Source: Archaeoglobaceae archaeon (GTDB taxonomy: Archaea; Halobacteriota; Archaeoglobi; Archaeoglobales; Archaeoglobaceae). Taken from it: DNA of 64,000 nt. Each line of letters opens with the position of its first letter. Positions within the stretch are counted from its first letter, which is position 1. A program made the translations under genes and the position numbers. The notes beneath the pieces are model-generated. The model saw only the letters and a list, made by a program, of their open reading frames with translations. It had not been told where the DNA came from and made no database searches. Positions 43,830 through 46,662 of the stretch are shown one piece after another. The DNA lies in the NCBI GenBank assembly GCA_025058735.1, contig JANXDX010000019.1, positions 1-64,000 on the forward strand. The letters run 5' to 3'.

Positions 43830-44681
43830 TTACTTTTTAATATATCTCTTCATAATTTCTACAAACTTCTCATACTCGATGTAACCAGCTACTTTCATTC
43901 CGTCGATGAAAAAGGTAGGAGTCCCTGAAACTCCGTATCTCAGGCCTTCTACAAAATCTTCATACACTTTGCTTCTATATTTCCCAGATTCATAACAAGA
44001 TCTAAACTTTGCAACGTCTAGGTTCAAATTTGCTGCATAATCGTAGAACTTTGAAAAATCTCTTATCCATTCACTTTGTTTTTCGAACAAAACGTAATGA
44101 TATTCCCAGTATTTTCCCTGTTCTCCAGCACAAAGAGCTGCTTGCGCTGCTTTATAAGAAGTTTCTCCATGAACTGGAAAGTTTTTGAAAATAATTTTTA
44201 CATTAAATTCTCTTAGTATTCTTTTTTCAACTTCTAAACTGAACTTAGAACAAGCTGGGCAAGCATAGTCGCTAAATTCAACAATTACAACTTCTGGATT
44301 TTCAGAACCGATCGACTGGCCTTCAGTTTTTAACTCGATCGGAAAAACGTAACCAGCAGGTATTAGAAGTCTGTTGTCTATTACATAGAAAGCATCGGTA
44401 AAAACTTTTGTCCCATTCTGGTATATGTCGATCAGCACGAGGTAAGCGTTACCTTCGATTTTGTAGCTTGAGATCTTAGCATTTAATCCAGCGTAATTTT
44501 CGCGTAAAAGATCGTTTATGGTTTTTTCAATCGTTTTAACATCCAAATGATGCGGATAGAGTTTTGTTGCAGCAAAACTTACCACTGCACCGAGTAAAAA
44601 GACAGCTGCAAAAAGTACGAATCTTTGAAGTTTCATAGTTTCAATTGATAAGAAGTTATTTAAATGTTGCCCGAACTTCAA
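43830..44681 (-). CDS. membrane-anchored DsbA/thioredoxin_4 family thiol oxidoreductase
   Basis: N-terminal TM; VEFSDYACPACSKFSLEVEKRILREF; FPVHGETSYKAAQAALCAGEQGKYWEYHYVLF; SGTPTFFIDGMKVAGY. Confidence 0.88.
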   Translation of the reverse strand: MKFGQHLNNFLSIETMKLQRFVLFAAVFLLGAVVSFAATKLYPHHLDVKTIEKTINDLLRENYAGLNAKISSYKIEGNAYLVLIDIYQNGTKVFTDAFYVIDNRLLIPAGYVFPIELKTEGQSIGSENPEVVIVEFSDYACPACSKFSLEVEKRILREFNVKIIFKNFPVHGETSYKAAQAALCAGEQGKYWEYHYVLFEKQSEWIRDFSKFYDYAANLNLDVAKFRSCYESGKYRSKVYEDFVEGLRYGVSGTPTFFIDGMKVAGYIEYEKFVEIMKRYIKK

Positions 44682-44878
44682 CGCTGTCTATCATCGAAAG
44701 CTTCGCTCTCTTAAGACAGCTGACCCTGCGGGCTTGTCCCATGCCCGGGTTGCCCCAGAATCATTGCAAGCAAACGTTGCTCGCTCCTCAGAGGACCTAT
44801 CGGCATGGTGTATCCCCGAAATCGCAGAAAGCATCATCGCCAGCTTAGCTGTCTTAGCTTTCCTCCCCTTCGGGGACA
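44662..44878 (-). ncRNA. three-hairpin H/ACA-type pseudouridylation guide RNA
   Basis: Minus strand. Hairpin 1: lower stem CCCCGAA/UUCGGGG, upper stem GGAAAGC/GCUUUCU, 14 nt to ACA (GGGAUACA). Hairpin 2: CCAUGCC/GGCAUGG, upper GUCCU/GGGGC and GCGAGCAA/UUGCUUGC, 14 nt to ACA (GGGACA). Hairpin 3: GCCCG/CGGGC, upper GCUGUCU/AGACAGC, 15 nt to ACA (GGCAACA). Hairpins 1 and 3 share UAAGA...GAUGAU kink-turn-like elements; TATA-like element CTTTTATC lies about 25 bp upstream. Confidence 0.85.
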
Positions 44879-44928
44879 ATTGAATTAGTTTTTTAGGGAT
44901 AAAAGTTTTTCGAATGCAACAACTTAAA

Positions 44929-46662
44929 TTAAACTAAAATTAAGTAAGTTAAATATACCAACATCAGAAGTAGAACTATCAGTAACCAAATTCCTGAACT
45001 AAGAAGTTCCGATCCACTTCTTCCTCCAGAAGTAGATTGTTTAAAAACTGCTTCTGGCGTTGTGAATAAAACTTTAACTTTTCTAGCAAAAAGACTAGAA
45101 CTTTTGTCTAATTTTCTTGCTAAATCTACAAGTTGAACTTCGCTAAACCTTATGATCTTGTTACCTAAGATTCTACCAAACCAGTCTGTATCAAGAATTG
45201 TGGCCGCAACACCTTTGTACTTTTCACGGTAAACAAAGAAAGCTATAGATACAAAGGTAAAGAATTGTAGTGTGTTTAAAACTTTTGGAGGTTCGTACGG
45301 AGTAAATTCTACTGAATAAGGTAAAAGATCGTATAAAATTTTATATCCTGGATAAGTTCCAAAGAAAATGCAAAGAAAAGCAGCCAAACCCATAGCAACG
45401 AGCATGTTCCTAGGTACACCTGTGTAAGTTATCTCCACAGGTTTTTCTCTTGAAAACCAAACGTTCCAAGGAAGTTTTAATCCTATACAAAGATGAGTAC
45501 CTATAGCAGCACCTTCTAAAAGGATGAAAATTATTGGAAGATTTAATTCTGCTGAAGCATGTATAGTCATAGTTTTACAAACAAACCCAGCAAACAGTGG
45601 AAATCCTGCGATGGAAAAAGCCCCTATCATGTATAGATAAAATGTTGAGCGCATATATTTGTACAATCCGCCAAGCTCTGTAAATTTACTTCTTCCAGTA
45701 GCTACAATTACTGCTCCCATTCCCATAAAAAGAAGACCTTTATAAATTACGTTACCAAAAGCTAGAGAAACTGCACCGTTTATCGCTAAACTTGTCCCTA
45801 AACCAATTCCACATACCATGTAGCCAAGCTGTGAGACGATGTGGTATGAAAGAAGTCTTCTTCCATCGTTTACCATCATAGCAAATATCACTCCGTACAT
45901 CGCCATCACTGCTCCAAGCCATGCTAAGATCTCTAATCCAGGAAAAGCTCTAGCTAGTGCATATACTGCACACTTCGTTGTAAAGGCTGTCATATATATT
46001 GCACCGGTTATCGAGGCTTCTGGATAAGAATCTGGTAGCCAAGAATGGAATGGAATTACTGCTGCATTTATCATGAATCCCAGCAAAATTAAAAGATACG
46101 GAAAACTTTCCGAGTCCATGAAGATCGTGAAGTTGTCGAACTCTATTGATCCTGTATTCTGCACGTGCAGAACTATACCGGCTAAGAGACAAGAACCGCT
46201 GATCACGTGCCAAATTAAGTACCTAAAACCTGCAGAACGTGCAGCTCTTGTACCTCTGAACCAGATCAAAAATACAGCAGATATCGTCATTATTTTCCAA
46301 AATATGTACAAAGATATTAGATCTCCAGCAAAAACTGCTCCTATAGTACTTCCATAGTAAATCATCGCTGTAACATGCTCCAAATCGTTTTTTATGTGAA
46401 TGGAATATATATTCGCACATACTGCAATTATTGTAAAAACGTACGCAAAAACTAAGCTTAGCTTATCTATTCTACATGTCAACTCGTAGTTCAAGAAGTA
46501 GAACTTCCATTCTATTGGAATTTCTCCGAAGAATCCTTTTGATATTGAAATCAAGAATAAAAAGACAAAAACTGGAATTAGGAGGAAGTAAATTTTTCTT
46601 AAAAGCTTGAAAGGAATGAAAGGTATAAGTAAGGAGCTGATTATTATTAAAAGCCCGATCAT
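44929..46662 (-). CDS. Mrp/Mbh-type antiporter subunit (NuoL/M/N family), third copy
   Basis: Multi-TM; WLPDSYPEASITGAIYMTAFTTKCAVYALARAFPG; antiporter-like Lys/His-containing TMs. Confidence 0.88.
   Translation of the reverse strand: MIGLLIIISSLLIPFIPFKLLRKIYFLLIPVFVFLFLISISKGFFGEIPIEWKFYFLNYELTCRIDKLSLVFAYVFTIIAVCANIYSIHIKNDLEHVTAMIYYGSTIGAVFAGDLISLYIFWKIMTISAVFLIWFRGTRAARSAGFRYLIWHVISGSCLLAGIVLHVQNTGSIEFDNFTIFMDSESFPYLLILLGFMINAAVIPFHSWLPDSYPEASITGAIYMTAFTTKCAVYALARAFPGLEILAWLGAVMAMYGVIFAMMVNDGRRLLSYHIVSQLGYMVCGIGLGTSLAINGAVSLAFGNVIYKGLLFMGMGAVIVATGRSKFTELGGLYKYMRSTFYLYMIGAFSIAGFPLFAGFVCKTMTIHASAELNLPIIFILLEGAAIGTHLCIGLKLPWNVWFSREKPVEITYTGVPRNMLVAMGLAAFLCIFFGTYPGYKILYDLLPYSVEFTPYEPPKVLNTLQFFTFVSIAFFVYREKYKGVAATILDTDWFGRILGNKIIRFSEVQLVDLARKLDKSSSLFARKVKVLFTTPEAVFKQSTSGGRSGSELLSSGIWLLIVLLLMLVYLTYLILV

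Follow-up and report, generated by a model that had tools for sequence, protein, structure and literature searches.

Identity of the minus-strand RNA

The window, by which we mean the whole 64,000-nucleotide stretch of DNA analysed, carries overlapping open reading frames on both strands next to a dsbA-like gene, and the question is what this locus encodes and whether its product still acts on the targets of its relatives. A first-pass annotation had proposed an unlisted H/ACA guide RNA on the minus strand. We have found, using an Rfam search, that the region matches RF00064 (HgcG = Pab40) at 44660..44932 (-) with a score of 100.7 bits (E 3.4e-26) over model positions 1–276. Membership of this family requires a full-length match, with a gathering score of 77 bits, and the match is both full-length and above that threshold; no other RNA family was found over the region up to E 1. 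The proposed class, for which an Rfam search had been suggested as the check, is therefore upheld, but the RNA is not an undescribed one. The homology suggested to a multi-hairpin A. fulgidus H/ACA RNA also holds, since the family includes Afu4.

44665..44877, minus strand: HgcG/Pab40/Afu4 three-hairpin H/ACA guide RNA (probable mature span, 3′ end approximate; RF00064 match)

The locus is present in a single copy in the 1.22 Mb draft genome (29 contigs). Among the 59 genomes of the same class searched with the model, the family was detected in 53, with 44 exceeding the cut-off, and a pattern search of the genomes with no model match revealed no convincing overlooked copy. These include G050, a member of the same genus that is 98% complete, where neither model nor pattern found HgcG. 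Weak extra HgcG-like matches occur at G025:C1:438959-439091 and as second matches in G017, G023, G024 and G048, and are possibly other H/ACA RNAs; one of the weak extra matches precedes a 16S gene by ~90 bases.

Genome G001 is presumably A. fulgidus DSM 4304, so that its copy, L021, would be Afu4. Pf7, Pab40 and Afu4 have been treated as homologous multi-hairpin RNAs (PMC2584109, PMC4652768), and Pf7 has three hairpins (PMC2584109). Taking all the evidence below together, we are highly confident that the minus-strand RNA is the HgcG/Pab40/Afu4 orthologue, with hairpin 2 (HP2) predicted to act in the A-loop and hairpin 3 (HP3) at U1915 of 23S rRNA, and hairpin 1 (HP1) probably off its ancestral site.

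Architecture and fold

Three consecutive hairpins on the minus strand, each followed by an ACA, had been described by eye, and all of them can be located in the sequence between 44877 and 44665.

44812..44877, minus strand: hairpin 1 (sequence, fold and covariation helices 1–3); lower stem 44877-44869/44820-44812, 5′ guide GGGG 44868-44865, 3′ guide GCGAU 44825-44821, kink-turn with small apical stem
44809..44811, minus strand: ACA box 1 (sequence; ACA or AAA in most homologs)
44739..44808, minus strand: hairpin 2 (covariation helices 4–6, 23S A-loop pairing); lower stem 44808-44802/44745-44739, 5′ guide GAUAGGU 44801-44795, 3′ guide CAACCC 44752-44747
44735..44737, minus strand: ACA box 2 (sequence; invariant in the 44-sequence alignment)
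44669..44733, minus strand: hairpin 3 (covariation helices 7–9, 23S helix 69 pairing); lower stem 44733-44729/44673-44669, 5′ guide GGGUCA 44726-44721, 3′ guide GUUGAA 44682-44677
44665..44667, minus strand: ACA box 3 (sequence)

By inspection, with the upper (GA) stems closed as in the homologs, the distances from upper stem to ACA are 14, 15 and 15 nucleotides. The first-pass annotation had counted 14, 14 and 15. In productive folds the ANA box lies 14–15 nt from the pocket-closing pair (PMC4652768), as it does in all three hairpins here. In every upper stem 10 pairs can be drawn as far as the sheared pairs of the kink-turn. Each of the three hairpins shows, by inspection, GA or AA / NNU-GA motifs 10 positions above its pocket and is predicted to form a kink-turn. 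The near-identical UAAGA.../...GAUGAU elements of HP1 and HP3, previously read as kink-turns, coincide with the kink-turn positions of the homologs (GAG.../...UGA). In this genome HP1 and HP3 have A·A where Afu4 has the sheared G·A pair.

The region folds with a stability z of −3.78 against 200 dinucleotide shuffles, none of which was as good. Covariation was scored on an alignment (MAFFT) of 44 oriented homologs, taking as the structure the pairs of this genome's sequence. Of its 62 pairs, 43 are altered on both sides among the 44 homologs, and helix 4, in HP2, is paired in 100% of the cells of the alignment. The covariation score is 0.398, compared with 0.192 ± 0.007 for shuffled controls and 0.08–0.13 when the partners are slid. 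Covariation in homologous loci, which had been named as a test of the proposal, is thus strong and far above both controls.

By homology with the family, L7Ae would bind the kink-turn of each hairpin, and Cbf5–Nop10–Gar1 would engage the pocket and the ACA. The internal pocket would pair with rRNA on either side of an unpaired uridine, which Cbf5 would isomerise to pseudouridine. The genome does encode Cbf5 (536.9 bits).

Targets of hairpins 2 and 3

Target patterns with a literal UN between the two guide-paired halves had been proposed for all three hairpins, and scanning these on the 23S rRNA of this genome and on the 16S rRNA of the genus gave no full match. The sites of HP2 and HP3 were obtained by relaxing the pockets so that one or two nucleotides following the target U could stay unpaired.

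HP2 pairs with GGUUG-UUC-GCCUAUU in the 23S A-loop, leaving three unpaired bases, with U2554 or U2555 (E. coli) as the target. The pattern proposed earlier, CGGGUU-UN-CUAUC, was displaced from this fit. The best HP2 site in the genome's own 23S rRNA is at E. coli 2554, with p about 0.065 against shuffles, marginal alone. HP3 pairs with GUAAC-UC-UGACCC at U1915 of helix 69 (A. fulgidus L1970, P. abyssi L2016); in the earlier UUCAAC-UN-UGACCC the 3′ half was correct and the 5′ half was not, the actual sequence being GUAAC. Here the best site in the own 23S rRNA is E. coli 1915, with p about 0.03 against shuffles, again marginal alone.

Both assignments are made stronger by the homologous positions reported for Af4.2 and Af4.3. 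A single offset of +5 puts all five of the A. fulgidus 23S positions of PMC4652768 on uridines of G001, so that A. fulgidus L2601 corresponds to E. coli U2555 and L1970 to U1915, and this offset brings the published Af4.2 and Af4.3 positions (PMC4652768) onto the HP2 and HP3 sites found here. In addition, Pab40 and Afu-4 introduce Psi2016 in vitro (PMC2584109). We predict that HP2 directs a modification in the A-loop (E. coli U2554/U2555) and HP3 that of U1915, in the loop of helix 69; both hairpins should be active.

Two features of the 23S rRNAs may be recorded here. The helix 69 loop of this genome (23S L032 460-3420 on contig C16, at ~1996) reads UAACUCUGACC, with an A1916C change adjoining the HP3 target, while every other aligned sequence, E. 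coli included, has A at E. coli 1916. The 23S rRNA of G050 retains the target uridines of HP1 and HP3, and its A-loop reads GCCUGUU rather than GCCUAUU in the stretch expected to pair with the HP2 5′ guide.

The ancestral target of hairpin 1

In A. fulgidus, the HP1 pocket CGGGG/GCGAG pairs with CUUGC-UA-CCUCG at position 2547 of the G001 23S rRNA, and this pairing beats all 200 shuffles. The L1970/L2016 site is 572 nt upstream of it, a spacing identical to that between L2016 and L2588 in P. abyssi. Hairpin 1 of Pab40 has L2588 as its confirmed target (PMC4652768), U2588 being guided in vitro (PMC6138745). From this complementarity and spacing, the homologous HP1 is predicted to pair on either side of the U that corresponds to L2588 of P. 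abyssi (E. coli 2496). The target U is kept in all 21 other genomes with a readable site (22 readable including our own), and the 20 relatives tabulated all combine it with 8–10 of 10 flanking pairs (10/10 in 16). Guide and target change in step in G015 and G017 (UUUGC/CAUCG with GCGAA/GAUG). The literature assigns Af4.1 to 16S position 1167; no good A. fulgidus HP1 pairing was found at the published S1167, and this assignment could not be squared with the pocket.

Apparent loss of the hairpin 1 target in this genome

The corresponding site in the genome's own 23S rRNA reads CUUGC-GA-CAUCG: the target U is replaced by G and 7 of the 10 guide–target pairs are left. Positions 2455 and 2496, which we take to pair in 23S helix 89, are A-U in the relatives and U·G here. 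The guide reads AGGGG/GCGAU, against CGGGG/GCGAG in Afu4. In the 20 relatives tabulated the HP1 pocket is complementary to the L2588-equivalent U, and that of this genome is not. The target lies outside the Rfam definition, so the mismatch weakens a claim on HP1 function but not one on family membership. To judge from the rRNA sequence, HP1 probably no longer makes the E. coli 2496 modification and looks like an orphaned or retargeted guide. We favour, with reasonable though not strong confidence, the reading that a conserved Cbf5-guided Psi site in helix 89 was lost through a compensated change from A-U to U·G, leaving a folded HP1 that has been orphaned or has moved.

The target first proposed for HP1, AUCGC-UN-UCCCC, has no significant site in the own 23S rRNA, and no significant new site was found there for the HP1 pocket (best p about 0.2). 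That HP1 has been retargeted since the uridine at 2496 was lost, for example to AAUCGC-UC-CUCU in 23S rRNA (E. coli ~757), to 16S rRNA (of which this genome has the last ~330 bases only, at the start of contig C16) or to another RNA, would agree with the retention of its fold, kink-turn and ACA despite the absence of the ancestral target U. Ten contiguous pairs, wobbles among them, form at the best 23S candidate, but its score is at chance level, with the p-value given above, and relatives with an HP1 that suits the ancestral target have the E. coli ~757 site as well. We regard a new target as unlikely.

We consider it quite improbable that the changes at 2455 and 2496 are an assembly or binning error and that HP1 remains a guide for the ancestral site. 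The draft genome, in 29 contigs, lacks a complete 16S gene, and its 23S rRNA has 19 substitutions at otherwise invariant positions, A1916C among them, all of which could point to error. Against this, the two facing bases are both altered and the pair is kept (A-U to U·G), which argues against a sequencing error, and the HP1 guide has drifted too, to 7/10 pairs when the target U is disregarded. The 23S contig, C16, also bears the only full-length LeuS gene of the genome, and G050 is the nearest relative by both LeuS and 23S rRNA (its 23S being partial in this comparison); mis-binning of the contig is thus unlikely. The preferred reading remains that the helix 89 site has been lost.

The 19 substitutions compare with 0–7 in the other aligned Archaeoglobi, which suggests that rRNA has evolved fast in this small genome of 1.22 Mb. 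The same 23S rRNA has G2448 and A2499, as does that of G015, where most relatives have A2448/C2499; this suggests that the two positions, near the peptidyl transferase centre, change together.

Overlapping reading frames and flanking elements

A protein-coding role for the region, through the ORF at 44645..44848 (+) or that at 44691..44879 (-), is highly improbable and was rejected: both frames are open, but the homologs keep no open frame in the same strand and phase, and the strong covariation of RNA pairs and the Rfam match stand against it, so that the first-pass description of both ORFs as artefacts is sound.

Two TATA-like elements were noted by inspection on either side of the RNA.

44899..44905, minus strand: TATA-like CTTTTAT, ~25 bases upstream of HP1, probable promoter
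44657..44664, minus strand: TATA-like TTTAAATA, putatively serving the downstream dsbA-like gene, which it precedes

The first ~55 RF00064 model positions (1–56) fall upstream of HP1. As the P. abyssi transcript reportedly begins with the first base of its H/ACA motif (PMC4652768), this stretch of the Rfam match is probably promoter. The listed TTG start of the dsbA-like ORF (43830..44681, minus strand), at 44681, overlaps HP3. An ATG at 44636 lies ~25 bases after TTTAAATA, which fits a leaderless start, and from the sequence it is probably the true start rather than the TTG.

Comparison with related guide RNAs and implications

The Pab40 RNA of Pyrococcus and Thermococcus (RF00064) resembles the RNA described here in having three hairpins in the same order and in matching the full-length model. 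Pa40.1, with target L2588, corresponds to the HP1 lineage, and Pa40.3, with target L2016, to HP3. Pa40.2 differs from HP2, being described with a 23-nt 3′ guide and L1932 as its target, whereas HP2 matches the A-loop site reported for Af4.2; and the target U is present for Pa40.1 but missing for HP1. The A. fulgidus orthologue shares the HP2 pocket and has a closely similar HP3 pocket. In Haloferax, the H/ACA hairpins of Hvo1 and Hvo2 are homologues of stems II and III of Pf7/Pab40 (PMC2584109). A stem I homologue was not found in haloarchaea, consistent with the absence of the modification there (PMC2584109). In this genome, by contrast, hairpin 1 is kept and the target U has been lost, so that the genome may represent an intermediate state.

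The RNA itself is already covered by Rfam and is a textbook archaeal H/ACA guide, so that locating the copy here is added annotation. It belongs to a known family and shows a modest oddity of its own lineage, the loss of the HP1 target. The HP1 pocket and its 23S site can be traced through about 20 Archaeoglobi, and in one genus the guide changes in step with its target. If our reading of HP1 is true, this genome would provide a natural snapshot of guide turnover within a multi-hairpin guide RNA, and, with the target uridine gone and the hairpin kept, it would make it possible to test directly how a guide RNA loses or switches its targets.
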